64,000 nt of DNA, taken from Glutinoglossum americanum (lineage: Eukaryota; Ascomycota; Geoglossomycetes; Geoglossales; Geoglossaceae). Numbering within the stretch: the first letter of the stretch is position 1; every line of letters begins with the position of its first letter. The stretch covers positions 1 to 64,000 of the forward strand of contig JAGHQL010000033.1 in the NCBI GenBank assembly GCA_020080175.1. The letters run 5' to 3'. The notes under the pieces are model-generated. The model made no database searches. It was given only the letters and a program-made list of their open reading frames with translations, and was not told the DNA's origin. Position numbers and translations under genes: made by a program. Below, piece by piece: positions 9,215 to 61,600 of the stretch.

Positions 9215-11527
9215 ATGTTACATACTCCTCCGCGCTTTACCTCCCTGTTATGTCTTATGTTGGTAGTCCAAGGTTTGGCTTTGGCTCTTCTGGAAGTGCT
9301 AAAGCCTTTTCCGAATACAATTCGGAATGAAAAGCGCCGTGTCCTTGAAGGGACCGATTTCTCGTCCCTTGAGCTTCAGCAGCAGGAAAAATTTTTTTTC
9401 AGCTCGGTAGATCGTTAGACCCCCCAGTTATACCATCACAATGCTTCGAAGATCGGAGTTTTTGCTAATCTCTGTAATTGAGCCAGATGGACAACCTGTT
9501 GGGCTTGCTAAAATGACTGTATACACGGCCAAGGGCGAGTGGATCATTTCGATGGAGTCCTTCAGAGAGATGCTTGAAACTGTGCGCTGCGATGACCGGA
9601 CTGTGGTGCTATTCTTCAAGTCCAATGCCAGCTTCCAATACGCTGTTCATGCCTGGAAGTGGGTGAACGAGGATGCAGAGAACAGCTTCATCATGGTTGT
9701 GAATCATCATGGATGCGGGGACGGTACTTACGGCACACAGCCCTATAATATCTCTGGAATACGATATGATGAGCAGCACTTCGCTACATATCTGCTCGCG
9801 GAAAAGCTATCATGGAGAGAAGCCGTGCATACATTCGACCTCGACTTTACAAACAACTTTGGCTATGGTATTGGTGCTCGGCAGTTGGCAACTTACGATA
9901 AGTCTACGACATTAAGTCTCACCAACGACTTTAGCCAGGATCTGTTCAGTGAGGATATCGGTGAAGTTACAATTTCCGTGGCCTGCACGGACTGTACGAC
10001 TGAGGGGGGAATGGTCGTCTCAGTCCATGTGGGCGTCTCGATCGGCAACCTCGAGGAATTTACCATTTCCGCATCCCCAAAAGACTTCATCGCGACGATG
10101 GAGCTTCAGGCCAGCATCGAAGCTACCCTTGGTAGCCCATACAGCTGGCGGCAGAAAATAACCTCAGTTGAGCTTGGTGGGTTCACCATTGCGGACATAC
10201 TGACACTAGATTCAACACTCGATTATTATATCGGTTTCTCTGTTTCAGCTTGGCAGAGCTTCTCAGCTGTGACATTTGGGACTTCTGCTACCCTATCTGA
10301 CTCCGCCGTTGCTGAAATCGATCTACTTAACATAAAACACAGTAACTTTTCCGGTTGGGCACCTACATTCCAGCCACTCCCGATATCGGCTAGTACAAGG
10401 GTGTCTGGAGATATGGTTGCTTATTCTGAGCCAGCATTAACTCTCCATCTTACAGTCTTAGGTAGTGTCCACTTTCATGTCTGCGTTCTAACACTGTTTA
10501 GTGCTCAAATCTCATCGTACGGCAGGTATTGGATTCGAAGCGGGGTTAGACTTCAAGCTGCCCGAGGCAAGAATTCATCTCGAAGGGTTCGCCAGTAAGT
10601 TCGCCTGGTTTTAGCCACTGTAGTGACCGGTTTCTAAGCATTTACAGGTGATAAAGAGGTGGGGATAAATGTCGAAACTACACTTGATGTTACCTTGGTT
10701 GCTCAAGTGGGTTTTGCTGGAGTTGACCTCGTTGAAGACCCCATATATGTGAGTTCCACTCCCAACCACATGCTATTCACGTCCGGTAAAGCTAATTTTT
10801 TTTGAACAGAATAATAGCTGGCCACCAACAAAAGACACCATCGGGATCACCCCTGACTCCAACTCGGTGACCGATGTTTCAGGTTTTCCACGTAAAGGAG
10901 TAACTTGCCCAAACAGTGAGTGGCTATGCTAATCTTCACAACTTTATACTGGATCGTGCTGATATTCTGAATGGAAACTTAAAGAAGGACCCTCAGGTAG
11001 GAAATCTGTATTATGCATCATTCATGACCTTAAACCCTGACATTAGCCATGATTTGATGTAGCTGGCCATTCCTTTAGTGGAAGGTTTATGGAACTTAAC
11101 GTGATGGATTTTGTGGGTATTACTGCCAAGTAAGTCCATGCAATCGTGTTTCGCAAATCACTGCCAATTTCCTTATATTAACATATTCCATCTAGAAGGA
11201 GGAGAAAAGGTAATTATCCCAAGAAATGGACGAGGGGGATTGAGGGTTCCGGTACTCAATTCAATTGGAAGAATGGCTGTGACGCTCGAGAAAGAAACGG
11301 AGAGCAAATTCGGGAGCTCCCTATGGGAGCCGGAGAAATCAAATGGAATGACATGTCCAAGATTCCAGGACCGTATCGGGTAACCTATACATTTCTCTAA
11401 TACTTTTCGCTCCCGCTAATTGATTCAGATGTATTACATAGCTCTGAACAATGTGACGACCTACTGTGGAGCATACGCCCATACGGATAAAGACAAACAA
11501 TGGGTTCTCGAGGAGTGTATTGAGTAA
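9215..11527 (+). CDS. Large secreted fungal protein, DUF7029/DUF7223-like
   Basis: Unknown function; probably secreted or wall-associated. ATG 9215 opens a signal peptide (SLLCLMLVVQGLALALLE) and a short lead-in ending in LELQQQEKFFF. The main exon (from about 9441) has an N-terminal domain with TVVLFFKSNASFQYAVHAW and WVNEDAENSFIMVVNHHGCG, then HTFDLDF, which I recognise as the pattern of DUF7029. A long beta-rich region resembling DUF7223 follows. Supported introns: 10462-10524, 10595-10647 and 10749-10809, giving GIGFEAGLDFKLPEARIHLE and VGFAGVDLVEDPIY. Further introns lie between about 10915 and 11200. The end is conserved-looking: IKWNDMSKIPGPYR, YYIALNNVTTYCGAYAHTD and QWVLEECIE, then TAA 11525-11527. 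Odd point: the signal-peptide frame stops at 9418 and the main frame starts 20 bases on in another phase, with no usable intron between. Either an indel near the T run at 9390 breaks the gene or an exon is mis-seen. The family call is from memory of the motif pattern. Confidence 0.65.
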
Positions 11528-15138: not shown

Positions 15139-17676
15139 CTACCTCAGCTCGAAAGTCTGCGCCTTGATGTCGTAGTCGTTCTGGAACTTGATGGCCTCGC
15201 CGTCCATCATGCCGTGCACGTAGCACTCGCCGATGAGCTCGTAGTAGAAGTGCTTCGGGTCGTCTTCGAGCGGGAAGGCGTCGTCGGATAGGTCGGTTCC
15301 CGTTCGGTCGGTTCCGGTTCGGTCGGTTCCGGTTCGGTCGGTTCCCGTTCGTCTTGGTTCGTCCGCTGGATGGCTTGGCTCGGCTTCCGGCTTTGGCGTG
15401 TTCCTCCGTTCCCGGGGGGCCTGCGGGTGGGCTGGCTCGTTTTTTGGCTTTAGTCTTGGCGATAGCATCGACGGTGGTTTCGGTCTGGGCTTTGGGGGCT
15501 TTGGCTTGGACTTGCCTGCTCCGTTCATCGATCTCAATGATTTCGCTTCTGGGACTGGCTGGGATTCTTCCTGGTTGGCTGGCAATGACCCCTCTGTATC
15601 CGCCAGTTGCTCCTCCTCTCTCTGGATTGCCTCTTGTCTTTCTCTAGCGAGCCGTATTTCCCTGAGCCTAGCTCGCCGTTCCACACTCTCCCGATAGCCC
15701 CTCTGGATCCTAATCGTCGCTACTTCTTTCATCTTCTCAAATTCTTCCTCGTCTTCCTTTTTCTCCTTCTCCAAGTCTGCGATCGTCTTGCGTTTTCTCC
15801 GTAGGATAACAGGGACGCTACATCCATACAAGATGCATATCAGATCGCCCTCCTGAACATCTTTACGGACGATACCGAGATGATCATTCTCTGTTCGCAT
15901 GAGGGATCTATTCCAAATGACGGCCTGTACTCTCCGGAAGAACTCTGCAACGACTGAGCACCTTCCATTATTGATCAACTCAGATGTGTTTAGAGACCCG
16001 CTTTGTAGGCCCTTTAGGATTGACTCTCGGCATGCTCGCGCGTAGTATGTGGGAGGGTTACGTCCGTGGCGGCCTCGATCAGCCACCAGAGTGCGCCAAA
16101 ACTCTTGTGGAGGGTCGTCGTCCTCATCCTCCCAACCGACCTCTACAACCCACTCCTCTGGTATGTTGCCCCCCTGCGATGCCACCTCTACTCTGGCCAC
16201 CCTGTCGAGGATAAACCCTGACACATACATGCTATAGTATGTGCTACGCGTCTTGAACCTTAGCGTTGACAAGTCTACCTTCCTAGTTCCGGCCGCGCTG
16301 TAATTCCTTTGGCTTAGACTCGGGAGCCCAACGAGTGGATCGGCGTTCTGTCGGCCCACTCTCATCTCGCCGTTCGGATGGGGAAACATTGCGTATGCAG
16401 CGCCGGAGAGTCGGGGGATCCACGATGGCATTTTCCGCGTTTCCTCTGCCTCTTTGATGATTTTCGGCTCCGCGCGCACCTTCCTTTTCCCCTTCTTGGA
16501 TCCCTTTTTTTCTGGGGCCGGGGCCCATGGCCTACAGATAATGTCTAGTGCTCGTGTCTCGTCAGATTGCCGAATAGAAAACAAAATAAACTCTTTATAG
16601 ATATCAAAGAGCCGTTGCTTGTAATCCACTTTGTACGGCTTTCTCATTCTATAGCGGTAGGCCCAGGCATTCAACTGCGCCCTTGCCGGGGTGACAGACG
16701 ACTGCGTTGCTCCACGGATTACGGCTTCTGGTGCAGTGTCCTTGGCAATTGCGAGTAATGCGTATATTGTGTCTTGTGGCTGAACTGCCTCGAATACCGA
16801 CAGGCTAGACACAAGGTATTCGAGACTAAGGAGTGGCTCTCGCGCCTTGTCTTTCGAAACTCGAAATAGGGTACCGGTCGCATCGACGAGAAGACTTGCG
16901 CCCAGGGCAGACACATATTCAAACCACCCAGGTACGTGGTAGAATTTCGGATCCTTCTTCATAACTTCTGAGAGCCTATGAGTGGCTGTTTCGACTTCCA
17001 CGAAGAGCTGCACTGCATCCGCGAAATCTTTCCAGGGAATCGTCTCTTTACCGCAGTATATCATAGCATCGTTAGCCAACGCGATTTCCTGAACTACCCA
17101 TCGACGTGAGAACCACGGTCGCTCCATAAGGTTCAACATCGCTCTCCACTTAGGGCTGGCAGCCTCATTGTCGCATAGCTCATCAAATCCTTGAAGTTTT
17201 AGGACTTCGTGTTTGATGAAATTCAACGCCATCTTGCTGTCATCGTCTCCCTCGCCAAGCCATATGCAAACACTCGTAGCGCTTTCGTAAATTTTGTTCA
17301 TCATTGGGACTTGCTTGTTTTTCTCGTCCGAGTGCTGTTGATTGATGCAAATAGCGTCGATCCATAGTGTTCGAATGGCACTGCGGCTCCGAAGAGCCCT
17401 AAGAGCGGAGACAAGACTTAGCGGAGCCTTGACAAAGTAGTCTACACCCTTGTGGTGGATCCGGATCGTCTCGTCCCATGGATCCGTTCCCCAGGACCAA
17501 GATAACGCCTCGTACTCAACCTTGGTCGTATCGAGGTTCTCTTCTATTAGTTCGCAAACGATTTCGGATGCAGTTTCGCCCCCTGGTCGGAGGTTGAGGA
17601 GGCGCACAGAATGTGGCGCCGCAAGATCGCCATAGGGATACTCGGACAAGCCCTGATAATCTTCGGATTCGTGCAT
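15139..17676 (-). CDS. HET-domain (heterokaryon incompatibility) protein
   Basis: Intronless, 845 residues. HET proteins act in fungal allorecognition and cell death; the domain is TIR-like. The HET core runs from about 25 to 200: YEALSWSWG (55-63), LWIDAICINQ (104-113), MMNKIYESATSVCIWLGEG (125-143), then RPWFSRRWVVQEIALA. The conserved C-terminus is also present: GCSVPVILRR (618-627) and YYELIGECYVHGMMDGEAI (from about 811), ending in FELR, so the gene looks complete. Between these two normally close blocks sits an insertion of about 180 residues. It holds an acidic/basic coiled coil, an exact IQ motif IQxxxRxxxxR (657-667), a Lys/Pro-rich linker with PxxP strings (about 719-775), and four TGTDR pentapeptides (777-796) from a 15-bp repeat. 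The IQ motif suggests calmodulin binding (inference). The neighbour at 20121 points away, so the promoter is in 17677-20120. Confidence 0.93.
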   Translation of the reverse strand: MHESEDYQGLSEYPYGDLAAPHSVRLLNLRPGGETASEIVCELIEENLDTTKVEYEALSWSWGTDPWDETIRIHHKGVDYFVKAPLSLVSALRALRSRSAIRTLWIDAICINQQHSDEKNKQVPMMNKIYESATSVCIWLGEGDDDSKMALNFIKHEVLKLQGFDELCDNEAASPKWRAMLNLMERPWFSRRWVVQEIALANDAMIYCGKETIPWKDFADAVQLFVEVETATHRLSEVMKKDPKFYHVPGWFEYVSALGASLLVDATGTLFRVSKDKAREPLLSLEYLVSSLSVFEAVQPQDTIYALLAIAKDTAPEAVIRGATQSSVTPARAQLNAWAYRYRMRKPYKVDYKQRLFDIYKEFILFSIRQSDETRALDIICRPWAPAPEKKGSKKGKRKVRAEPKIIKEAEETRKMPSWIPRLSGAAYAMFPHPNGEMRVGRQNADPLVGLPSLSQRNYSAAGTRKVDLSTLRFKTRSTYYSMYVSGFILDRVARVEVASQGGNIPEEWVVEVGWEDEDDDPPQEFWRTLVADRGRHGRNPPTYYARACRESILKGLQSGSLNTSELINNGRCSVVAEFFRRVQAVIWNRSLMRTENDHLGIVRKDVQEGDLICILYGCSVPVILRRKRKTIADLEKEKKEDEEEFEKMKEVATIRIQRGYRESVERRARLREIRLARERQEAIQREEEQLADTEGSLPANQEESQPVPEAKSLRSMNGAGKSKPKPPKPRPKPPSMLSPRLKPKNEPAHPQAPRERRNTPKPEAEPSHPADEPRRTGTDRTGTDRTGTDRTGTDLSDDAFPLEDDPKHFYYELIGECYVHGMMDGEAIKFQNDYDIKAQTFELR
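15295..15354. repeat. 15-bp in-frame minisatellite, 4 units
   Basis: Four 15-bp units near ggttccggttcggtc, the outer two each with one or two changes. On the minus strand they encode the pentapeptide TGTDR four times inside the HET protein. Unit length is a multiple of three, so copy number can change without shifting the frame. Confidence 0.92.
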
Positions 17677-18290
17677 GTTGTGCCTTGCACAGCCGGAGGT
17701 ATCGTTGGGAAGTGGTTACGCCAGAAGACGCGAGGAAGAAAGCCTAGAAAGGAGCCACCAGCGAGCTGCGCGAGCCGCTATTATGTAGTTGCTCAGGTGC
17801 GGCTCAAGAGTTAGCACATTGAAATTGCCGGCTTCTACAGCGGTTAGTGGGCAGCCAATGACGCCAGTTCCCATACCTCCACCACAGCCCCGCAGTTTGT
17901 AATCGCAGTAGCTCCACTCCGTTTGCAGCCGAAAGCTGAGGCCGGATGAAAAAGAAAATATGGCCGTGGCGTGGGTCTGGACTGCACCAGACTTGGCGAT
18001 AGACGAGGTTGGTGGGGCTGATGTCCCGCGATTCGCTGGATGTTCGAAAGAATCCATTGTCGCCTAGTCGGCGCTGTTCCCCTGGCTCGACGTGTCAGCT
18101 TCTGGCCATATTTCAGCATCTCAATTAGAATAGAAGTAAATAAAAATAAAATGCCTGTAACCTACTTCTAGACCAGCAGCCTCCCTTTCGAAAAAACCAC
18201 ATCAGCCGTCTATTTCAATCTTGGGTGTTTCCACCTGGCGTCTAAGTCTCTAAGAACGCCATTACAGATGATGACCGGTGGCGGGTGGGG

Positions 18291-33037: not shown

Positions 33038-34552
33038 GGGTGGGTAGAGGGCGAGGAATTGGGGGCCTCGGATGGGTGGTTGGGGGGTAATAGGCTTTCG
33101 ATTGCTATTTTTAAAAGAGGGCGAGCTCGCCCACCCCCCAGGCTTAGTTAGGAGAGAGAGTCTAAATCTATACGAAGTACCACATACTCCACCATCCATT
33201 TAGTTTTGCCATGTGACGCCCAAGCTCAGATATGTGAGGTGGCTTGTTTTGAAAGAAAGAGTTTAAACGAGGGGGATGGAATGACCGGGACATAGTAAGA
33301 AGCCGGTATTGGCTACGCATGGGATAGATCAAAGATAAAAAGGAAAGAGAAACGATTACCAACATCGAGGCCGCTATGTAGGGCCATCCAATGAGTGTTG
33401 TAGGTTATTCTCGAATTAGTAGAATGGTCGCCGACGTCAGCAATGGCACACTATATATAAGAACTTAGTTAGCCAAGGACAATTGAATTCTCATTGCTAT
33501 ATAACATGGGGTCGACCCATGGAGTCCTTATATCTATGGTATTACGGGTAGGTTGCTAATGGCTTACGCAGGGACGAAAAAGGGGGCGTAACATGGTGCC
33601 ATTTCCAAGGCCTTGGCTGAGAGCTTCTCGGCCGCTCGGCCGCGAAAAGACGATGGCACGGTCCCCGTCTTCCGGATTAGGGGGTTGAATCTGGTACGGC
33701 TGAGAGAATGCTCCAGAACAGGCGCCATAGGGCCGAGCGCCCTGCCAAGGCCAAAGTGCCTCCGGTAAAACCTATTAGAATAGTGTAGTATAACCTCGTG
33801 TAGATAGAATTGAGTCTATAATGAATCGCCTTAACTAACTACATGATGTGGGCGTACGCCCTATATGTGTTGGGGTCGCTTAGCCCAGCCACCCAAATAG
33901 GGGCCACCAGAATTCCGCTGCCCCTATGCCTTGGCACGGGCCGCGTTCCGTGTCGCACCATGAGTGCTACTTCCAACAAAACCAACACCGAAACGGCAAT
34001 GAGGACCATGGCATCATATGCCATTGAAGTGCAAGCCCTGGTCACCTTAATAGCCACTAGCAGCTTTTACTAGGATATTTTCTCCGATAGGATCGATTTC
34101 GATGCCAGCTGGATGTATTTAATCAAAAGTAAGTCTCCCCAACCATGGTAAAAGGACGGAAAACAGATAAAGCACAGGGAGTTATCCTATCTGCCTACTA
34201 ATATCACAAATGATAATGTCAAGATTGGCTTGGGCCCTCGCCACCGCAGTGACACTTGCCGCAATGCTCCAATCTCGGTCAACCACCTAGAGACATACTA
34301 TATCTTCTGCTTTAGGCCCGAGGCACTAACAGAGTGAGTCCGTTACAGTAAACTGAGAATGTAAGAGTGGAGTTGAGTGGGGAGGGGGATTTAAAGCGGC
34401 GAGGAAGCAGGGTTATGGCAAGCGATCATGGCTGTGGCACGACTCCATGGTAATAACACTTCGACATATTTTCAGCAGTCCACGAGGGGTTTAGAGCACC
34501 GAAGCTAAAAAAGGTTACATATGTCGATAGAGACTATTGACTGCAATCGAAG
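33038..34552. other. Gene-free stretch
   Basis: One ATG-initiated minus frame at 33839-34057 has a TM-like run (MVLIAVSVLVLLEVALMV) but no family; it may be a relic. The segment at 33590-33790 is GC-rich with direct words (ggccgctcggccg). Nothing else recognised. Confidence 0.45.
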
Positions 34553-36118
34553 ATGCCCCCCTCCAACTTTAGCGACAGCATTTACACCTCTTCTGTGGTT
34601 GGAACATGGCTTGGATCGCTCTTCACAGGCATTGGATTACTCGCCGTCATAACTCAGCTCCGCGGTCTTATTAAGGACTTTTCCGATGGTCACAGGAAGC
34701 GGCTGATGCAGGCTGCCGGGCCATGGTCAGCCTGCTTCCCAGATCTTCGCCACTCAGATAGCGGGGTGGTGGAGGGAAAAGCACCGGCGTTGACTGGCTG
34801 GATCCGGCGCTATTACTTGGATGACCAAGACATTCTCTTTTCCCCATTTGAGAGACGGTCGGCGGGTGCCCAGGCATCTTGGAGCAGGCTGTTTTCTCGA
34901 TGTGACATCCAACCCTCAGACCTCCGGCTCTTCGGTGGACCGGATGCGGCATATGCAATGGATAGGACGGACGCATGGCAACGGAAGCTAGTTCAAACGG
35001 ACCTCCTGATCGAGGGTGGCAAGTTTTCTTACGGCTTTACCGGGGATGAGTTTGCGGTTCTTCTGATAATCAGTGGGTTTTCACCGTCGGGGTTCAGCGC
35101 GAATGGGACGTCGAGTTCGTGGGGACCTCTAGGGTTGATGCACCTCGGAGACCATGGGCCGTTCTCCCAGGTTGCGCAGTTTGATGGGCCTTTTGGGGAC
35201 CTTGAGTCCCTTCAGGGATCTAACGGCCCTGGGCGCTATGCACATGCCATCAGCGTTCGCAAATGTATTGACCTATCCCTTGGGGTCCTGCGATTTAAGG
35301 TTGGAGGAACGCAGAAAACCCTCATTCCCTCGGAGCGGTTTCCACGCCCTCCACCCGAAGAATGGGCCCGCCAGCGGCGCCAGTATGTTCGCAATAATCT
35401 CGCATATCTCACCCGCATCGATTCTGATGATAGCCTTATACAGGGTATTGAAGTTACCTCGTCTAGCAATCTTGTGGACCTTTTACCTTGGTCAAGAGTC
35501 ATATCAGAGAACACCTACAGGTCTATTGATCGAGCCAGCCTTACGGCTACTATGGACATCGCTTTTGCTATCAAGACCTTACAACCGTGGGGAGTGCCAC
35601 CTGTACTGCCTCACCGCCTTGTAGCAGCTATTCGCCCTTTTCTTATCCGATTGCTCGACTCTCCTTTGCAGTTGCACAACAAGGTTTTGGAGTGTCCAAC
35701 AAGTTGTGATGTTGGGATAGATGGCTGGACGAGCCCATTGCTAGGCGAGGCTCTCGCCTCTATCGACTGTAGTAAGGCAAAGCCCTTTGATGGGCTAAGT
35801 CATAAGTGTGCTCTATACTACGACGCAATGCTTTTCATATTCCGTCGACATGGGATGGCTTTAGAATCCGTTCAGATAGGTCTAGCCGCTTGGTGCGCTT
35901 GTCAATACCTAAACAACCAATTATCCCTCGAGAGTGACTGGTTAGGAAATGCTCAAAGCGCTATTAGGAGGTGTCTTGGCGATGACCGTGAGGTCCCGGA
36001 GATGGAGAAGTGGGCATATGAGATATTGGCTACATATCTCAATGCATGGCTCCAAGAGTCTAACGAAATTGAAGATCATTTCCGGGGTAACTTTCGAAGA
36101 AGAGTATTCCTGGGGTAA
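34553..36118 (+). CDS. Unknown fungal protein with N-terminal TM
   Basis: Intronless, 521 residues; not recognised with certainty. ATG 34553 is followed by a single N-terminal membrane segment (TWLGSLFTGIGLLAVITQL, about 18-36), then a long soluble region: LMQAAGPWSACFPDL, YYLDDQDILFSPFERR, YGFTGDEFAVLLIISGFSP, FPRPPPEEWARQRR, DIAFAIKTLQPWGVPPVLPH and a helical C-terminus (CALYYDAMLFIFRRHGM, EKWAYEILATYLNAWLQ). The general plan (one N-terminal TM, WxxCF-like motif, helical tail) is seen in lineage-specific Pezizomycotina proteins sometimes labelled modin-like; I would not insist on that. The frame is open and complete with normal codon use, so it is a credible intact gene. Confidence 0.65.
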   Translation: MPPSNFSDSIYTSSVVGTWLGSLFTGIGLLAVITQLRGLIKDFSDGHRKRLMQAAGPWSACFPDLRHSDSGVVEGKAPALTGWIRRYYLDDQDILFSPFERRSAGAQASWSRLFSRCDIQPSDLRLFGGPDAAYAMDRTDAWQRKLVQTDLLIEGGKFSYGFTGDEFAVLLIISGFSPSGFSANGTSSSWGPLGLMHLGDHGPFSQVAQFDGPFGDLESLQGSNGPGRYAHAISVRKCIDLSLGVLRFKVGGTQKTLIPSERFPRPPPEEWARQRRQYVRNNLAYLTRIDSDDSLIQGIEVTSSSNLVDLLPWSRVISENTYRSIDRASLTATMDIAFAIKTLQPWGVPPVLPHRLVAAIRPFLIRLLDSPLQLHNKVLECPTSCDVGIDGWTSPLLGEALASIDCSKAKPFDGLSHKCALYYDAMLFIFRRHGMALESVQIGLAAWCACQYLNNQLSLESDWLGNAQSAIRRCLGDDREVPEMEKWAYEILATYLNAWLQESNEIEDHFRGNFRRRVFLG

Positions 36119-45898: not shown

Positions 45899-47773
45899 TT
45901 ACGTCCACTTGGCGCTCGATGACAACGTCCCATCAAGGACGACCATCATCCATGCTAGGTCTACAATCGCTGTCATCACACCCCAGTTGATTCGAAAGTA
46001 AACGCGATCAGAATAGAAGTTTCCGATGCATGAATAAATTACCAAAAAAAGACAAGTCAGGGAGTACAACCAATCGGGGAACGATGAGCCGATTAGCTGC
46101 CCGCGGCCCGCATTTCCCGGTGAGTGACTTTTAAGCTCAGAGGAGAGGACACGCCCGGGCATTAGAAACAGGGCAACCTTCATAGCTACAACGCTTCTGA
46201 GGGGGTCTGCTATCTTTCTGATAGCCCATCGTATAGGGCGACAAGGCATCGCCTTTGTAATGCCGGCCATCACTTTACCCAAAATGCACTTCTTGGCCGG
46301 GGGGATGACACTTCCGACCATCGGAGCAGTGACAGCCGCTGCTCCATATGCACTTGCTTCCAATGCGGTTGCAGCATCTCGACCCACAGAGTTCAGGATC
46401 CATGAAAGTCCACTTTGCTCGGTAATCACCGAGTTAGGAGCCACCACATGCCATGCTGGGGTATTTACCATCAACCAAAACACATCGAGCTGGCTTAGGG
46501 ACAGATTGGTGTCACCCAAGAAGGGTTGGACGCAGCTTAGGGACCGTGTGTAGTAGTAAAGCTGTTGCAGTGCGTTAGGCCGTGCTAGGATTGCTAGGTG
46601 ATGATATAGTCTACCCACGGTCGGGCTCTTGTCTGCTGCCTTGCTGCACCAAAAACGCGCTACCCTTGTCCAAACCTCTCGATCCTCAATGCAGTCGTCC
46701 TCGATAGCCATACGGTATCTTCCGAGGTCTCCGAGACATTCAATCCACGTATCCTCGAACGTAGGGACAGTTTCGTAGAGAAGAGCCATCATGGAGTATG
46801 CCGAGTAAATAAACGCCAGCATGTGCTCCAGGGAATCGGGCAATCGGTGACGGTGGAGTTCCAAGAAGGAGTGTATTCCATGTCTCCACATGCGGGCTGG
46901 CATTGCATACTTTGAGGCGAGTCGGCGAAGGGCAGGGCTGGCAGAGCGGTGTTGAGATGCAAGAAAGAAATCATGGTGTTCATGCAGGAGCGTCCGGTGG
47001 AGAGCAATCAGCGCCTGCCATTGTTCGTTGTTGAGTTTTGGTTGTTTACCGGGCCCAGCTTCCTGTGCGTCTCTTGCTTGCTTGTTGTCAACGTCGACGC
47101 ACTTTGCTTCGACCATAACTAGGCCCGCATAGATACCCTTGACCTCTGCGACGAGTTGTTCTTGGCTTATGGGCCGGGTCTCGGGTTGAAGCACCAGGCC
47201 AAGGTTTTTCTCAGAGTACACCTGTTCGCCATGAGGCTGAGTGGGGCTACCTACAAGAACAGAGCGACCCCCACCCTCCCGGGATTGTGGTGCGTGGACC
47301 TGGGCCGCTTGCTTTGGTGGGATGGCTGGGAACATATCCCTCGGCCGAATATCTTTCCGCCTCTGCGGCTCCTTCTTCGACCTAAAGACATGAGCTTGCT
47401 TATCATAGACGCGGGGTGCCATAGCTGCGGCTGCAGGTGCAAGGTTTGCGGGGTCTAGCCCCTTCACCACATCTGACCGGAGATTGGGATTGTCCGTGGT
47501 GGGGTTGAACAGGCGTTTGGAGCCTGAGGCTGGACGGGTCAGCTCCCCACCTCCCTCTCCCGGAATCGTTCGTATACTGTCGTCATCGTCTCTTGAACCC
47601 TCAGCAAATTCGGGATGATGTTGAGCAACATGAGTGAATAATTCATTCTCTCGATGAAATGCACGACGATCGAGACATTTCGGGCAGGACCATACTCTCG
47701 ATGAGGATCGTTTATAACTAATGAACCTATCATCAAGATTTGACGATGGTGGCTGCGTGTCTTTCACATCCAT
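45899..47773 (-). CDS. C2H2-finger / Est1-like / TM protein
   Basis: Intronless, 624 residues. N-terminus: a single C2H2-type finger C30-x2-C33-x14-H48-x4-H53 (WSCPKCLDRRAFH...HVAQHH). A disordered basic region follows, then from about 215 a helical domain. Its signature PARMWRHGIHSFLELHRHRL, MALLYETVPTFEDTWIECLG, YRMAIEDDCIEDREVWTRVA and SPTVGRLYHHLAILARPNAL is that of the Est1/SMG5-7 TPR-like DNA/RNA-binding domain (PF10373-type) found in many Pezizomycotina. After QQLYYYTRSLSCVQPFLG there is a Gly/Ala/Pro stretch and a C-terminus with TM-like segments (LYSLTCLFLVIYSCIGNFYS, WGVMTAIVDLAWMMVVLDG). A membrane-tethered Est1-like protein differs from the nuclear telomere/NMD roles of the family; in filamentous ascomycetes this architecture is lineage-specific and of unknown function. 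A decayed copy of its 5' end lies just upstream at 48.2 kb. Confidence 0.75.
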   Translation of the reverse strand: MDVKDTQPPSSNLDDRFISYKRSSSRVWSCPKCLDRRAFHRENELFTHVAQHHPEFAEGSRDDDDSIRTIPGEGGGELTRPASGSKRLFNPTTDNPNLRSDVVKGLDPANLAPAAAAMAPRVYDKQAHVFRSKKEPQRRKDIRPRDMFPAIPPKQAAQVHAPQSREGGGRSVLVGSPTQPHGEQVYSEKNLGLVLQPETRPISQEQLVAEVKGIYAGLVMVEAKCVDVDNKQARDAQEAGPGKQPKLNNEQWQALIALHRTLLHEHHDFFLASQHRSASPALRRLASKYAMPARMWRHGIHSFLELHRHRLPDSLEHMLAFIYSAYSMMALLYETVPTFEDTWIECLGDLGRYRMAIEDDCIEDREVWTRVARFWCSKAADKSPTVGRLYHHLAILARPNALQQLYYYTRSLSCVQPFLGDTNLSLSQLDVFWLMVNTPAWHVVAPNSVITEQSGLSWILNSVGRDAATALEASAYGAAAVTAPMVGSVIPPAKKCILGKVMAGITKAMPCRPIRWAIRKIADPLRSVVAMKVALFLMPGRVLSSELKSHSPGNAGRGQLIGSSFPDWLYSLTCLFLVIYSCIGNFYSDRVYFRINWGVMTAIVDLAWMMVVLDGTLSSSAKWT

Positions 47774-49086
47774 CTGCTAGGATCATCCGTCAGCTCGCGA
47801 CCGGTAACAAATTTTCTAATCTGCTCATATGTTAGGGGGAAAACTATACTGCGAGGCTCAAGAGAGCACTGTTGTGATTGGTTGAAATATAAGTGAATTT
47901 GTTGTTATATATTTGCGGTAACAAAGATGAAGTCTAGCAGGACACCTTTTTGTAGCGCAGCAGCCTAGAGCCTCCTCCAAACACGGTAAAGGCAAGGCGA
48001 ACCGCCAAGAGTTTGTGATGCGGCTGCTTTTAAGTTGGGGTCATGCTGCCTGAAACCCGCAATCACCGGCTGAGCGTCACCTCCCTATCAGGAGAGCGAA
48101 GCTTATTGGATGGATCAGAGGGCGAGTCCTGGTCCTGACTGAGAGAAAGCTTTTCCATACCGCTGATTTCTTTGTGCTGTTGGCGTGGCCGAGGAGCGGC
48201 GGGGATTTTTCCAGCGAACCTAACGTCGAGATTTGACAACGTTGGCTGCGTGTCTTTCACGTCAATCTGCTATGATTATCCGTTAGCTCGCGATCGACGG
48301 TCATTCTTCTAATCGCGGTATATCACTGGGAAAAACAACTATATCCGCCCGGCTCAAATCGGTACGGCGATGCTGCGATTTACTGAGTTGGTTTCCGTGT
48401 GTGTTGGGTATAAATTCCCCTCAGGATCGAGAGGGGGCTGGCAACTTATCTGCCAGGCTGAGTGCAGTGACACTCCGGGTTTAGTGCGAATAAGCTAAGA
48501 GACCTAACAAGCCAACGCTACTTTTAATACCTCACGGACTGGCACCCCTCTCAGGATTCAGGAAGAAGGTCCTTCCATACGTTTGTTGGTTCTTCCGAGT
48601 GTCCGGAGCATAGGCGAACAGCGCCAAGAAAACCTAACGAGGACACTCGCAGCCGCTTTTATGGTCTTAAAGTCCAATTCGACTTGCGTCTGCGCCGAGG
48701 GCAGCCGTTGTTAACTTTCGCCCGAGTAAAAGCGCCAACATCCCTGGAGTTAGGCGTCCAGTGATTACGCGTCAAGCAAATTTTCATCCACTCAGATGCA
48801 GTAGAGACCCCAGTAGTCACACCAATGAATTCTCATACTGGCCCACTTTTCGCCCACTTTCTAGCGGTGAAGTGTAGTGGGCAGCCTCACAAAGTTAGAG
48901 CCACAGGACGCCTTAGAGAAATCGCATTTAATCTCCCAACCACCTAGGCAAATACCAAACCCCATCACCACGGAAAAGCCGACCCTCGAAAGCTTCCAAA
49001 GAGGCATTCGACTAATCTCGACGCCGCCGCTTGCCAAGCACTCAACATTCCTCACACTAAACTTCACATATTTTTCGCCTCTCCAG
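47774..49086. other. Upstream region of Est1-like gene with a partial duplicate
   Basis: Contains the duplicated 5' fragment annotated below and otherwise anonymous DNA. The segment 48400-48870 holds no supported gene. The right end is promoter of the small membrane-protein gene. Confidence 0.5.
48063..48350 (-). pseudogene. Decayed tandem copy of the Est1-like gene 5' end
   Basis: Minus-strand sequence at about 48214-48350 is clearly homologous to 47724-47850 (start codon region and leader of the intact gene). Both share ggctgcgtgtctttcac, a tctgcta block and agctcgcga. The copy encodes DVKDTQPTLSNLDVRF against DVKDTQPPSSNLDDRF in the intact gene, but the ATG has become ATT. After about 18 codons it runs into unrelated sequence that remains open to 48063. 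Many differences are transitions. It is a broken tandem paralogue or a partial duplication including the promoter. Confidence 0.7.
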
Positions 49087-52712: not shown

Positions 52713-53727
52713 TTACCCCATCCCCGTGCCGAACATGATTCCGAGGAATGAACAACCAACCCAGATGATCGCATGCAGTAGCAGCTTAGGCGGGCAGTAT
52801 CTGCAGTTGGTGTTAGTGTTGTTGGATCGACAGTGTGTGGGTGTAGCCTTACAGTCCTCCGGCGAGCTGTACATAGCCAACCCAAAACAACCAAGTAGCC
52901 ATCCAGGATAGAGGAACCATGGCGACGCCCATAACAGACATAGTAAAATGCATTTTGTAGGCGACATGCCAGCTCGATGCCAAAACAGCAACCGTAACTA
53001 TTAAACCTAGCCCTAGGAGAGCACTCTGGCCGCATAGCCAGTACAAGGCGGCCGAATACATCATGTGTGCTCTACGGCCGGTAGGTCCTGGAAGGTTCCC
53101 GAGAATGTAGTATCCACGGGGCGCTGCGAAAGCGACGGTAGTACCCATGGTATATGCAGTGATGAGTTGGAGGACTATCTCGGCAATAAACTGGGAGAAA
53201 GCAAAAGTGCGCCATGCCCAATCCTTCTCGAACTTTTGTCCTGGAGATATCTGTGACTGAGAGCTGGTATTGTGCCCCTGATACATCTGATACGCGGCAT
53301 CCTTTCGTGCCCGGCGGTCGCGTGCCCCCGAGCAACAGTTGGGCATCCACGAGAAGGGAATGCCGAAGATCCAAGAAACCCGCGGACGAGCGGTAAAGAA
53401 CAGCGTGAGCTGCCAAATCGAGAACCCCTGTTCATAACCTGGAGTTCTCTTGATGACTAATGCGATGCAGGCGTTGGCAAGAAGCTGCAGACCAACCACG
53501 ACAATCCAGACCCATTTCCAGGAATTACTGTTCTTATGCCCGAAGAGCTTGCATGTAAGACATTTTGTCACCCTTCGGTGACCAACTGTGATGCTAAGGA
53601 ACCCGACGATGAGATTGACGATAGCGAAGGTGCCAAGGATGGCCGAAGGTGGCGGACAGGTAACCGCATTAGGATCAGTAGATCCCACGGACCAAGCCCA
53701 CGGAATATAGGCGGTTGGATCGTCCAT
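52713..53727 (-). CDS. Multi-pass membrane protein (about 7 TM, unknown)
   Basis: 320 residues, one intron 52801-52852 (52 bp, gtaagg...ctgcag on the minus strand) near the 3' end. Splicing it replaces the stop of the unspliced frame and adds LYCPPKLLLHAIIWVGCSFL and a final membrane segment ending at TAA 52713. TM-like segments in order: AILGTFAIVNLIVGFLSITVG, WVWIVVVGLQLLANACIALV, one near FSIWQLTLFFTARP, FIAEIVLQLITAYTMGTTVAF, YWLCGQSALLGLGLIVTVAV, VMGVAMVPLSWMATWLFWVG and the last. A charged loop with a Cys pair (KCLTCKLFGHKN) follows TM1, and WIFGIPFSWMPNCCSG lies midway. It resembles fungal polytopic proteins of unknown role. An additional 5' exon upstream of 53727 cannot be excluded. 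Confidence 0.65.
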
Positions 53728-56700
53728 TCTAGGGAGGGAAAACCACGGTTGGCGGGAAGCGACACGGTGTATGATCCCGGGTTGGCTCTCGTTGGTATGA
53801 CACCACGAATAGCTCTTGAGCTCCGAGCGCTTGATTGTGGTTGTATCTGCACAGAGTTAGTCGGAATCGCTCGACGATCGGAGAATGACTGTAGACTACC
53901 TCAGCAAGAAAGAGGATAAAGAGTCTAAGTCTTGAGTCTAAGGAACCCCGAGAAATAAGGAATGACGCGTTCGCGCCTTTATGAAAGAGCCATGCCTACG
54001 CTTCCTCATTCTATGCACAACCCTTTCCAGAACGGAAAGGCTGAAGAGAAGGCTCGCTGGTGCACCCAGCGGTGGCGACAAGAGCCGGCCAGAGCCGTCC
54101 TTCTCCATCCTGTGGTGGCGGGGTTGGTACTGCGACTGGAAAGGTGGCCTGATGCTCTATGCATACTGTATCGTTAAGAGTTACTCACATTGTAATACTA
54201 CGCCGCTTGCGGTCCAGGCAAAGTCTCGAGGCGCAGTGTGGTTGGATGACCTGACGATGTCTTGCTGCTCTAAACTTTCGACGAAACGCGGGGTCTAGAT
54301 GAGGGCCTTGGCGGGATTTTTCGACCTTCAGCCGCCGCCACAGAGCCAGCGAATTTTCCCATTCGACCTAGCTCTGCTTCTTTTAGTAAAGTGTCTTGCT
54401 TAGCCCCACCGCCGCTTTTCGAGATTCAGCCTCATCACAGGTTCTGGCCCAGTTAGAAAGAAACCCGAGAATAGACCGGCCCAGTCGCTAGATAGGCAGC
54501 TTGAACGCCTTTGACCATACTGGCTCGATGGTAAAGACCCCACCGAGGGTTTCGACATTCCCCCGCACCAAAAATAACATCTATCTTAATATGGGATATT
54601 AGTCAGAAACGTACAAAAACGGAGAAAATTTTACCATACCCCGTCACGGCCCTACATCTAGAGAAACACACCTGCACGAATTGCAAATTGTGGCTGTAGG
54701 ATTTGGAAGAGTGTGCTAGCGTGAGCCGTGAAATACACCATACTCTTGCTGCAAACGGCTCGTTATGTAGTGTCCCAGTGGCTGCTGATCTGCGTTTTCC
54801 CAGCATAGAAGGTATGAGCGTCATAGGCCCCATCAACTCGAGGGCCTATGGCCCCCACCATCCTCAGCTCCCAGTATTTCACGATATATGGAGCTACTGA
54901 AGCTGAGCGCCTGGTTTTTGGCTGCACGTCACAAGCCAGCTCTTGGAACACTACCGTGTAGCCGAAGTTTTTATACGCCATGCCTATCGACACGAGTTAC
55001 TCGAAACTCCGTGGACACAAGGTGTGAGTATTGAAATATTACCTGAAAATGCACCAAAACTGACTAACTTCGCAGCATCTCACGCACATGAACCCCACCC
55101 CACATCCCTATCACTTGGTGCTTGAACAAAGCCATACAAGGCTTTCAGCACATCGCACTAAATGAACTTTGAGCGATAACCGAGGCAGCGGCGACTTTTG
55201 GGGAGTGGGAAATGCCCTGGTTTTCACGTGGTTGTTATCTTCGACCCACAATCACTCCACCAAACCTGACGGAAATATTGTCTTACCAAACCTGATGGCA
55301 TGCGAAACCTAAAGTGATTTGTGAGGTCATTTGGAGCAAGCAGGAGGGAAACAGGATGAGTCAATTATCTTTATCACTAATAACCCGATGGTTGAGGTAT
55401 GTGCTCGCGTATGCCATCCGCCTTGGAGGTGTAGCACTATACCATAAGCTTCCACTCATTTTCGTGAAATTTTAGTGTGGTCGCTTTGCAAGTGCATCGA
55501 AACTCACGAGGTCCGACCCTACTACAGCCAGCATCACCCCTCCCAGTCAAAACTGAAACCCACTTCCGAGCTCAACCCTCCCCTCGAACGAAAACCACCG
55601 TTTCACATCTCTGGTGAAACAAAGATACCCAGTCTCCTTCCTTGCGAAACAGGATCCACCACCCCGCCAAACAGCGGAACAAACGGCATGGGAAACCTTA
55701 GTATCCAGAGACGGAGGGGGAAGGGTGCCGATAAAGCCATTGACGATCGAGTTGCTAGTTGAAACTGTTTCGGTACCCTTGCCTAAACAGAGCTATTCAC
55801 AAGAGGGATGGTATGTACGGAGAACCTATTGTAGGTTATGGCGATTCTCGCGGTATGGTGGAGGAGTTCGAGATGTATGACGTCACCAGACGTCGTTGCG
55901 AGGGCACGAATACGTGGGCACAGGTGTACGTAGAATCAATTCTATTGACTATGTAATGACTGCTGTAACGACTGGCTATTCTACATGGTGCATCCAGGCA
56001 CCTTATGTGTGTCTTCGGGGTCACGCCCCTCGGGCGCAAATAGGGGCAACCTAAAACACGTTGCTCCTATTCCGTGTTCCGGGTGCCGTGGCCCGCCTTC
56101 CTGCGACAACGCCACATTAATGCCGTTCCAGCGGCCGCGCAGCATACCCACAACAGAACCTTCGAGTTCCTACCCTCGCTCCAAGAATCTCCGGTGTCTT
56201 GCCTCCCAGAATCGTCAACTAGATCGGATTACTAACACGCTTCTACCAATTGCGAAATGCGGGTTTATGGACGTTACGGCGCCAACACCGGTCGTTCACT
56301 GTGGCGCGATATGCGCATAGACCTTGGCGCGATTTGGGGTAGATTTAGTGTTTCCCTCTTGCAAACCAGACAGGGCCGCAGACGTCATCCCCAGGGCTGA
56401 CTGCCCGTGGCAAGAATATTCTACGTGCTCTATAGGTGCCAGCCCCCCGCATGCTAGCGATGCTGCTCGACGATTCCAATGCTCTCGGATTCGGCGCGAG
56501 GGAGGAGTGTGGGATATAAAGAGTGGATGTCCATCTTCAATATTACCTCTCGCGCCTCGCAAATAAAACAAAAATAATTATCTAGTTACACCTTCGGCTG
56601 CTGTGCAGTCCATTATTTTCATATTCATTCCCTCTATCCCTTCTAGAAGAAGCGAGTTCATTTGCGCCATTTCAATAATAATCCTTTTGGTCTATAACGT

Positions 56701-56749
56701 TTCCAAGACACTGCAAAAACGCCTGTCGCAGTAGTATCTGTCTAGTATT
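53728..56749. other. Gene-free stretch (3 kb)
   Basis: Frames of 60-110 codons occur on both strands (for example 53981-54298, 55614-55880 plus; 56296-56571 minus) without family features. No repeats recognised. The right end holds the presumed promoter of the repeat-polyprotein gene. Confidence 0.5.
56515..56520 (+). promoter_or_regulatory. TATA box candidate (tataaa) of polyprotein gene
   Basis: tataaa within gggatataaagag, 230 bases before the ATG at 56750. Distance is on the long side for a fungal leader, but there is no competing gene on this strand. Confidence 0.4.
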
Positions 56750-57657
56750 ATGCATACTTATACCAAGATTGCTTTCGCGCTAGCCGCTCTTTGCCCAGTC
56801 TCCCTTTCTGCCCCATTGGGAGCGAGAACGGACTTTGGTGAGCTTAGTGGCAGGTACGTGTCTCGGACTTGCCAAAACATAGAATCTAGCTCTAAATTGG
56901 TAATGCTAATCTCGGTAGGGCCACCATCACGACAGATGCTTCGGCAGTCCACGAGGGAAAACGAGACCCGTTTGGCAGTCTGGGGAGAACTGTGACGAAC
57001 GATATTTTTTCTCGAACGGCGGTGCAGACATCTGGAATAGAAGGCGACCACGAGAAAAGAGGTGACCATTTTTTGAACTTTGAAGGCATCGTACGAAGTT
57101 CCGGAGACGAGATTGAGAGTATTGGAGAAGCTGTAGATGATATTTTGCCTCGAGCGGCATCTGGAAACCGGCGCGACTTTTTTTCGAAACTCAAAGACTC
57201 TGTTGACAAGTTCGGGAAAGCTGTAACGGATAAGCTTTTCCCTCGAGCGGCGGCACCGGCATCCGGAATAGAAAGTGGCGTCCAAGAAGAAAAACGTGAC
57301 GTTTCTTCAAAGTTCAAAGCTTCTATTGGCAAGATTGGAAAAGACTTGATAGATGTTCTTTTCGCTCGAGCACCGGCACCAGCATCTGGGGCAGAAATCG
57401 GCGATGAAATAGAAATTTCCTCTTTCGCTGGAACCGCCAACGCAAATGTCGGAAGATCTGTTGGATCTCGCCGGTTAGATTCTCGGGCAAGCGGGGCGAT
57501 GTCCGTTGGCCACAGCGGAGGCAAAGCTCAAGGTATTAGCGCGGGGAATTCTGGGGCCAGCGGAGCGGCGTCCGCTGGCCATAGCAAGGTCAATACTCGA
57601 GACATTAGCGCAGGGGGTTTTGAAGATAGCAGCGCGGGGGACGACGGCGACTCTTGA
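56750..57657 (+). CDS. Secreted Kex2-type repeat polyprotein (novel)
   Basis: 280 residues, one intron 56854-56918 (65 bp). Signal peptide TKIAFALAALCPVSLSAP (about 1-21). The body is built of related units that begin at dibasic sites: KR49-50, KR81-82, RR119-120 and KR160-161. Each unit has a charged amphipathic-helix-like segment (for example DFFSKLKDSVDKFGKAVTD at 121-139 and DVSSKFKASIGKIGKDLID at 162-180). A recurring tail follows: DIFSRTAVQTSGIE, DILPRAASGN, KLFPRAAAPASGIE, VLFARAPAPASGAE. A fifth dibasic site (RR219-220) precedes a Gly/Ser/Ala tail of two 23-residue repeats (SGAMSVGHSG..., SGAASAGHSK...). This is the layout of Kex2-processed repeat proteins, a class that includes RiPP precursors, repellents and Ece1-like polyproteins. 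No UstYa-type or other tailoring gene is adjacent. Function unknown. It looks intact, and the signal peptide and single clean intron support a real gene. Confidence 0.75.
57490..57627. repeat. 69-bp in-frame tandem repeat, 2 units
   Basis: Units 57490-57558 and 57559-57627 encode 23 residues each, sharing SGAxSxGHS and ISAG. They form the C-terminal tail of the polyprotein. Confidence 0.8.
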
Positions 57658-58636: not shown

Positions 58637-61600
58637 TCATCGAGTTTTCCCAACTTCATTAACCGCCTTCCACTCCTGCGTGATGGACTGAAGCTGTTCC
58701 TGAAAGTCCCTAGTGATATTGATAACCTGTTTAAGATGCGAGACGGTCAACCTGTCGTCGCCCCCAGCATCCTTCGCCGAGCTCCTAGCCAGCGCCAACG
58801 CCGAAGCGACCACGTTGCGAATCTGCCGGCCGTTGAGCTTATAGTCGCAGCCGTAATCGTCGACGAATTCCGTGATGGCCGCGTGGTCCTTGATGCAGTT
58901 GGGCTCGAGCTGGTCGAGGAAGATCTTGAATATCTTCTGCCTGTATTCGCGGCTTAGGTCGTCGTAGCGGATGGCGAGGTGGATGCGCGATTGGACGGCT
59001 ACGTCGAGGGATGTGATGCGGTTTGTGGTTAGGATCATGATTCCCTGGTAGTACTCGAGAACGCGGAGGAGGACTGTTTTTTTTCGGCGTTAGTTGGGGT
59101 ACCGTCGCGAGGTTGTAATGTCAGATTTGAGAGCTGGATTGTCGGAGTTACAAACCTGAAACTAGAGCATTCCTATTCGCATCTTCGCCGGATGTACGTC
59201 GTTCGAGAAAAACGTCTGCTTCGTCCCTGGGTGGCGGCGGTTCAGAATAGGGCACGGTAAGCAATTTGAGCCAACTTACACTAGAAGAACAGCTTCCCAT
59301 GATCCGGCAAGGGCAAAAATCTGCTCGAGGTTCTTTTCCGCCTTTGAAGCATCAAGACCGATCTCGGCAACGCTCACAACGAACAGCGGTTTTCCAGTCG
59401 CTTCAGCGACTGTTTCAGCTGTAAGCTACGGTGCACAATGTTAGCTCAGTGTTTTTGGAGCGCGCCCAGGAGCCTAGGGTGGGGTGGGGTGGTCATACCG
59501 TCTTCCCTACACCGGGGGGGCCTGGTTTTTGAGGGTCAGCACGAGGCATCCCGGTAAGGCTGATGGTAGAAAATTACCGTGTAAAAGAATGACAAGCCCT
59601 TTGCCCTTTTCTTCCACAACATCTCTGACTTCAACCCTGTCCTCTCTTAGGCGGTTTTTGCTTTGGTGGCTGACAATCAGTGCTTGAATCATTTTTTTGT
59701 ACTTTGGCTCCAGTTGTAGTTGATCCTCGAATACACTTTTGCGGGCTTTTGAGACAGGCCTTGTCGCTTCAACCTTGAACTGACCCCAGTACTTTTCTTG
59801 GGTGGAATAGCCTAGGAATCTAGGTGGTAACAAGAGGAAGTAATCTTTGCTATCTACGTCGGCTTTTGTCACGCCACCGTCCTGGTATTCTCCCTCTTCG
59901 AAGAATTCGCCGTCCAGATCCACAACGTCATATTGTGGTACCAGATCGAGTGGGCCCAATGGGTGCGAATCAGAGGCTGCAATAATGGGTCATTTCAGTA
60001 CTTATACATTAGGGAAGTCATATCAGCCTACCATAAGTCAAGAAAGCTTCATGATCCACAATAAAATTTCCTCTGAACTAAACCCATTTCAGCGAATGAT
60101 CGCATTAGACAAAACCCGGAACACACGGACTGACCTTGAGTGATTTGCGTTCGCTCGACCCTATAGGCCGTCCCCCACCATCACCAAGAAACGTCCGGCT
60201 GCCTGCGCCCTCAATTTACCAGAGACTGTCAGCTTAGGAATCCCACGTCTTGACTTCATCCATACCTGGTAGGCTCCCCTCCACATGATGGCACGCTGAT
60301 CTACGAGCGCTTCACCAGCATAGGAATGCATCTGGCCGGCTCCCTTTGGTCCTCTGACAATCCGGTCAAATCCCCTCCCCCTTTTGGTGAGGCTCTCGCA
60401 GAGGTCTTCCTCATTCTTGATGGTACCATTGTCATCCTTGTAATACTTTATCGGGTAGCATTCTAGCTCGTTAATACGTTTAGTGCCTTTGAACTTCTCT
60501 ATTTTGAGACTGAAGTAGACCTTCACCATCTCCCTGCCGTTCCAGTCGTAGCACCAACAATCGATACTAGCCTGTTTTCCTGACTCCGACCAATTATCTA
60601 GAGGCGCGCTCACAACAAAAATCTGCCGTGTATTCAAGAATGGCTTTGCGATTACCTTCTCCCCAGGGACAAATAGGGACCACATGGTTTCATATGTGGT
60701 GATGTGCGCTTTAAGGTTGGATTCCCGTGCTTTGAAGTACGTTTCAAGTTCCTCTGCCCCTTTTTTCACACTTTCCAAGAGGAGACCGAGATCCTGTCGA
60801 GCCTCATTTCTCTTCTCGTCATCCGAAGGGTTTTCTTTGGCCGCGCTTAGGAGGGCATCCCAGTAATGTACCTGCGCAAGTGAATTCAGTCAGCACTTCA
60901 GATAGGCCATACAGTGGCACGACATCATTCGAAGGATAGATGGTTACTCACTAACGGTGTAAATGGTGATGGAATATTCACAATTTCCCCGGACCAGCTC
61001 TGACCTGGGTAATCATCGCCAACTATCTCCTGAAGTCAAGCTAGTTATTAGAAACGAGTGAAAAACTGGGTTTAACTGGAAAGAGTACCATTAGGAGCTT
61101 CTGTAGCTCTATCGACTGAACAATGACCTGAGAGAAGTCTTGTTGACCGGGACCTGGGAATATCACCCTGCGGAATGTGCATGCGATATCCTCTTTATCT
61201 TCGATCGCACTAACGGGAGTGTTTCCGACGAAGTCCGCGCGAATACCAGTTTGGGGGTCATATTTACTAACAACAATTCTGATTCTAGAATTGTTGTCCG
61301 TGGGCTATCATGCTGTAAGTAGTTGTCCCAAATGGAGAGAAGAAGTTGCATACCTTAGATGTTTTAGGGTCCCCTTCCTTTTTGCTAACGTCCTCCCTAT
61401 CTCTAAAACGAGGATCATGGTGGGGAGGGGGAGGGAGAAGCGGAGGAGGGCCCCTCCAGGTATCGCCGGGCCACATCTTGGAGGTACACTTAGTGACGAA
61501 TCATAGACGCAGGATTAACCAACAACGGGACAAGCTCACAGGTGTTGGACAATTTGCGGGAGAGCCCACAAGCCATTCGAGCTGGGCAATACGTCGCTCG

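Follow-up and report, generated by a model that had tools for sequence, protein, structure and literature searches.

A putative orphan KEP of Glutinoglossum americanum with dibasic and possible LxxR-type cut sites in its repeat units

The gene described here lies in a window of 64,000 nucleotides, the whole stretch of DNA that was analysed, on contig C245 of the assembly of the earth-tongue fungus Glutinoglossum americanum (Ascomycota, Geoglossomycetes). It begins with an ATG at 56750 and ends with a stop codon at 57655-57657 on the forward strand, and its product of 280 aa matches the translation of the spliced DNA exactly (Table 1). Gene models were enumerated in the frame of exon 2 if their product reached 230 aa and their intron, 45-450 bp in length, had a consensus donor and a branch-like motif. 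Eleven models were obtained, three of which begin at 56750 and have an N-terminal hydropathy of 2.47; the remaining eight, among them the deposited exon, have values of at most 0.85. The splice sites vary between the three models, and the signal peptide and every repeat unit are retained in all of them. An equally good model arose in 1 of 300 upstream sequences resampled with a first-order chain. Judged by the hydropathy of the models and by these resampled controls, the product appears to have the N-terminal signal peptide that is expected of a Kex2-processed repeat protein (KEP), and we would place its cleavage point at about residue 20. An earlier note on this DNA had proposed a secreted protein of 280 residues with the intron listed in Table 1, a reading that both the exact translation and the signal-peptide-like start bear out.

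Table 1. Coordinates of the gene and of its predicted products in the window; residue numbers refer to the 280-aa protein.
Feature	Position	Strand	Basis
TATAAA, possible promoter element	56515..56520	+	Exact script match (putative function)
Exon 1: signal peptide (~residues 1-20) and start of pro-region	56750..56853	+	Gene-model listing
Intron, 65 bp, GTACGT...CTAAT...TAG	56854..56918	+	Sequence-predicted
Exon 2: every repeat unit, the tail and the stop codon	56919..57657	+	Frame common to deposited protein
U1 predicted peptide, residues 51-67, end IFSR	56965..57015	+	Motifs
U1 linker, residues 68-82, end KR	57016..57060	+	Motifs
U2 predicted peptide, residues 83-113, acidic (-6), end ILPR	57061..57153	+	Motifs
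U2 linker, residues 114-120, end RR	57154..57174	+	Motifs
U3 predicted peptide, residues 121-144, cationic amphipathic helix, end LFPR	57175..57246	+	Motifs, model
U3 linker, residues 145-161, end KR	57247..57297	+	Motifs, model
U4 predicted peptide, residues 162-185, cationic amphipathic helix, end LFAR	57298..57369	+	Motifs
U4 linker, residues 186-220, end RR	57370..57474	+	Motifs
Gly/Ser/Ala-rich tail, residues 221-280	57475..57654	+	Sequence

The deposited model of the locus (FGG08_002261) is a hypothetical protein of 259 aa that is identical to our product over residues 44-200 and has the N-terminus MLAMLLDD, without a signal-peptide-like start. This N-terminus fits a start at 56451 and a splice at 56509-56935, and the deposited model appears to use an upstream exon (window 56451-56935) that encodes no signal peptide; in this form the protein would escape secretome-based surveys of KEPs. 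The TATAAA sequence is located downstream of the deposited start and upstream of the ATG at 56750. Differences at codon positions 1, 2 and 3 number 9, 8 and 14 between U3 and U4 (third position favoured), 7, 3 and 6 between U1 and U3, and 5, 7 and 7 in the tail repeat, a pattern that lends weak support to the frame. Two open frames, of 211 aa (56892-57527) and 182 aa (56758-57306), overlap the gene on the reverse strand.

Ten frames of the window were scanned with Pfam, namely nine of the 23 frames of at least 180 aa and one of 150 aa. The nearest scanned neighbours of the gene are an uncharacterised frame (52852-53856) and a region on the reverse strand with AAA_lid_13 and DUF7025 matches (58640-60889). 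Elsewhere in the window, frames match HET (15142-17715, reverse strand), DUF7029/DUF7223 (9411-10595, forward strand) and EST1_DNA_bind (45902-47776, reverse strand). Nothing suggestive of a biosynthetic cluster around the gene was seen among the ten scanned frames, from which a small neighbour could have escaped.

The product contains five dibasic sites (KR49-50, KR81-82, RR119-120, KR160-161 and RR219-220), exactly where the earlier note had placed them. Five or more KR or RR pairs were reached by 538 of 20000 shuffles of the protein, and the dibasic-site count taken alone is only mildly unusual. The units between these sites (U1 to U4) were aligned in pairs with exact bounds, excluding the dibasic residues, against 2000 shuffles per pair. 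Four of the six pairs beat every shuffle (U3/U4, score 90; U1/U3, 54; U2/U3, 43; U1/U4, 40); neither U1/U2 (76/2000 shuffles as high) nor U2/U4 (241/2000) is convincing alone. The same picture was obtained with the bounds shifted by one residue. At least three related units of at least 8 aa between dibasic sites are expected of a KEP, and four are found here.

Alignment of all four units leaves one Gly, the tail Arg and a Ser-Gly pair as invariant positions. By eye, the units share a core of approximately 17 residues, and the segment that precedes it is missing from U1. Since only 4 to 8 of the 17 core residues are identical between units, the repeats are either old or fast-diverging. The SG(I/A)E tail that had been claimed for each unit is present in three of the four, U2 having SGN instead. 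No dibasic site follows U4 closely; RR219-220 ends 35 residues after the LxxR of this unit. The Gly/Ser/Ala-rich tail contains a two-copy repeat of 69 bp (57479-57616).

The conserved tail of the units, (I/L)(F/L)xR followed by A or T, matches the extended Kex2 site LxxR, and with both types of site marked the unit reads KR / helix-LxxR / linker, where slashes denote the candidate cut points. After residue 20 the P4 position is I, L or V at 8 of the 11 single arginines. Four of these are the unit sites (IFSR, ILPR, LFPR and LFAR) and the others lie outside the units (LGAR, LSGR, LDSR and VNTR); the single arginines without an aliphatic P4 are SLGR, GIVR and NVGR. The corresponding frequency is 29 of 167 arginines in seven control frames of the window, five of them with a Pfam match, one with homologues and one (34541-36115) without such support, and it is 0 of 5 at the dibasic sites. 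Eight arginines with an aliphatic P4 were reached by 16 of 20000 shuffles of the protein. Because the four unit sites share ancestry, the enrichment was recounted with these as a single site, giving 5 of 8 (p ~0.006).

Kex2 is reported to prefer Leu or another aliphatic residue at P4 and to accept variable residues at P2, with Pro, and not Ser or Ala, among the five best alternatives at the latter position, and Asp at P3 is described as unfavourable (PMC8528282). At P2 the unit sites have Pro in two cases (ILPR and LFPR), Ser in IFSR and Ala in LFAR; LDSR carries Asp at P3. In a peptide library Kex2 preferred LXXR, with K or R at P2 in the preferred sites. The Ser and Ala at P2, the Asp at P3 and this preference for a basic P2 speak against a cut at the sites concerned. 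Three Coprinopsis KEPs expressed in Pichia gave products apparently cut after a single Arg (PMC9769878), and the term LxxR has no occurrence in three KEP papers searched for it. A Kex2-type cut at the unit LxxR sites is plausible from the motifs, and would explain the conserved tail better than the earlier view of it as part of the peptide.

Products were predicted by cutting at both the dibasic and the LxxR sites. The peptides from U1 to U4 would comprise 17, 31, 24 and 24 aa, with net charges of 0, -6, +2 and +2, followed by linkers of 15, 7, 17 and 35 aa, respectively. U1 is short, and Lys is absent from U1 and from the predicted U2 peptide. The amphipathic moment of the whole units was reached by 2638, 289, 11 and 377 of 5000 shuffles for U1 to U4, and that of the predicted shorter peptides by 403, 49, 27 and 208 of 5000; by this measure amphipathicity is clear in U3, moderate in U2 and U4 and weak in U1. 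A single-sequence model of unit 3 has a helix at residues 2-21 (pLDDT block means of 93 and 90), which stops short of the tail Arg, and is otherwise unstructured. The fold model of the whole of exon 2 has a mean pLDDT of 42, and we conclude nothing from it; low confidence is common when a single sequence is modelled. The helix with alternating Lys and hydrophobic residues that had been assigned to each unit is present in U3 and U4, but U1 has no Lys and U2 is acidic and likewise without Lys. Taken together, the helix checks reveal a clear cationic amphipathic helix in U3 and U4 and not in U1 or U2. Residues 21 onwards contain no Cys, Trp or Tyr.

Domain searches of the genome ignored introns, and the counts that follow are accordingly lower bounds. 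A single proprotein-convertase P-domain match was found, at a locus that also encodes the subtilase motif GTSAA and, by eye in the open frames, a hydrophobic stretch further on, as expected for kexin; the computation thus supports the presence of a kexin-like gene. There is one match of the dipeptidyl-peptidase IV type. At least five UstYa (DUF3328) matches, possibly representing ustiloxin-type clusters, are located on two other contigs (C289:79207-90378 and C287:11315-11479; L003-L007), and the genome profile search gave no UstYa match on the gene's own contig.

Homologues were sought among 5.8 billion sequences with E values up to 10, candidates being those that share 5-residue words with the query. 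The best 7994 candidates by shared words were scored for the whole protein and 1015 for residues 44-200, and among these FGG08_002261 itself was the only match to either query. The protein has no Pfam match, nothing was found in a sequence search of solved structures with residues 36-204, and only one copy of the gene was found in the assembly (25.8 Mb, 317 contigs). As a control, the neighbouring frame 52852-53856 (reverse strand) returned 10 proteins from the same kind of search, including relatives in the Geoglossaceae Trichoglossum hirsutum (65% identity), Geoglossum simile (59%) and G. umbratile (60%); this frame has no Pfam match and has further, distant relatives in other fungi. Annotation often overlooks short genes with introns, and candidates had to share words with the query, so that absence from the sister species is not proven; the precursor is an orphan in these searches and possibly restricted to its lineage. 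Literature listings for the genus Glutinoglossum and its genome, for Geoglossomycetes and for the locus tag held nothing that we recognised as concerning this gene.

The frame, the relation of the repeats, the cut motifs and the kexin-like gene are supported by computation, and the core of the earlier reading, a secreted polyprotein of related units between Kex2-type sites, is well supported by the sequence and is the best reading available. We propose, with a probability of about 0.6, that the gene encodes a KEP from which linear helical peptides are released by cutting at dibasic and LxxR-type sites. The signal peptide would direct the precursor into the secretory pathway, where a Kex2-type protease of the Golgi would cut after the KR or RR ahead of each unit and probably a second time where each helix ends, at its LxxR-type site; a carboxypeptidase may then trim the final Arg. 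The output would be up to four linear peptides of the predicted lengths, together with short linkers. KEP-type cleavage as such is probable, and the odds that LxxR cleavage takes place in addition are about even. An unmodified linear product is in line with the lack of a UstYa match on the contig and of Cys, Trp and Tyr after residue 20. U3 and U4 would form short cationic amphipathic helices whose most likely place of action is a membrane or surface, which is our best, if tentative, guess on function, and the acidic U2 and the linkers may offset their charge during transit. A more speculative extension, which we consider doubtful, is that the alternation of dibasic and LxxR sites constitutes a two-code system, in which one protease frees helix and linker in two steps and the acidic U2 and acidic linkers mask U3 and U4 until the second cut.

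The leading rival to this proposal is a KEP cut at the dibasic sites only, in which the active peptides would be whole units of 32-59 aa, helix and linker together, and the FxRA...SG motif would work within the peptide. Dibasic sites are indeed the cut sites used by both KEP surveys (PMC7329392, PMC6339444), and conservation extends beyond the Arg into Ser-Gly, which a mere cut site does not need. However, this reading leaves aside the enrichment of aliphatic P4 residues at single arginines, also outside the units, and the end of the modelled unit 3 helix before the Arg, and we regard it as rather unlikely. It is less probable still that the product stays in one piece as a secreted or cell-wall protein, in which the repeats are structural, and undergoes no cutting or at most the removal of an N-terminal pro-domain. 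The tail carries a repeat of its own, and a pro-domain could be removed at the first LxxR and KR sites, as happens in the K2PP effectors (PMC8528282), but cut-type motifs recur in register in every unit and the fold model of the whole exon is not confident, as is often the case with a single sequence.

The possibility that there is no real gene in this frame, which would be open by chance or face coding sequence on the other strand, appears very improbable. The antisense open frames, the weak codon-position signal and the lack of a homologue in searches that do reach sister species for the neighbouring frame are compatible with it; against these stand the intron that joins a signal-peptide-like start in frame, the conserved units of the forward strand with their cut motifs in register, and the annotation of the same frame by the depositors. 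Least probable of all, and an outside chance, is that the gene encodes the precursor of an alpha-type pheromone or of a RiPP cyclised in the manner of the dikaritins (ustiloxins). Such precursors share this layout, XA or XP pairs open the linkers that follow LxxR in U3 and U4, and the dipeptidyl-peptidase IV-type match could be accommodated here. Cyclisation of dikaritin-type RiPPs requires a Tyr within the core, and alpha pheromones usually contain Trp or Cys. Dikaritin membership was rejected because no Tyr occurs after residue 20 and the UstYa matches found lie on other contigs only; where present, UstYa genes are on average 3.09 genes from the KEP (PMC7329392). Membership of the ascomycete alpha-type pheromones was likewise rejected, as the XA/XP (STE13) signature follows the dibasic site in only one of the four units (U1, DP).

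The gene looks like a known kind of fungal precursor with a unit sequence not seen elsewhere and apparently two kinds of cut site per repeat. As an orphan KEP it is credible, and the unusual feature of its processing sites is plausible. It adds a precursor from Geoglossomycetes, a class not named in the searched text of the KEP surveys (PMC7329392, PMC6339444), and reveals a deposited gene model that lacks a signal peptide. It also suggests a testable rule, namely that other fungal precursors be examined for LxxR sites that keep register with the dibasic ones. Should this rule prove right, KEP peptides would be predicted to end at other residues, and these ends decide synthesis and assay; and if the two-code system is true, dibasic-only surveys would misplace such ends and may overlook a class of these peptides.

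In common with the KEPs described in the surveys (PMC6339444, PMC7329392), the protein is short and has a signal peptide, with three or more related units set between dibasic sites. Orphans are frequent among these, 2560 of 7878 KEPs being stand-alone (PMC7329392). In contrast to KEPs, the units here have diverged to the extent noted above and carry in-register LxxR-type sites, a type of site that the methods of the surveys do not use (PMC6339444, PMC7329392). The published pipelines rely on FIMO or on a repeat score of 0.6, with SignalP for signal peptides (PMC7329392, PMC6339444), and with units as divergent as these the protein could fail them. The Ece1 precursor of Candida albicans, at 271 aa close to ours in size, likewise has a signal peptide; it carries seven KR sites, and an amphipathic peptide of 31 aa is freed from it by Kex2 and then Kex1 (PMC5784256). 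The pattern of sites differs, and candidalysin is not itself a repeated unit, although three other parts of Ece1 are (PMC7329392). No Ece1 protein appeared among the database matches, which drew on shared-word candidates and comprised the protein itself only; membership of the Ece1 family was considered and not adopted on this basis, and the likeness drawn earlier is retained for architecture alone. Rep1 and Hum3 of Ustilago maydis also give rise to repeated peptides released by Kex2, as we propose here, and those of Rep1 function on the surface of the hyphae (PMC8528282, PMC7329392). The Rep1 peptides form amyloid-like fibrils (PMC8528282), whereas the model of unit 3 here is helical. In K2PP effectors such as SnTox3, LxxR beside KR or RR is a proposed Kex2 site, as here; in these proteins, however, one N-terminal pro-domain is removed from the mature protein (PMC8528282), whereas in the Glutinoglossum americanum precursor the sites recur in every repeat.
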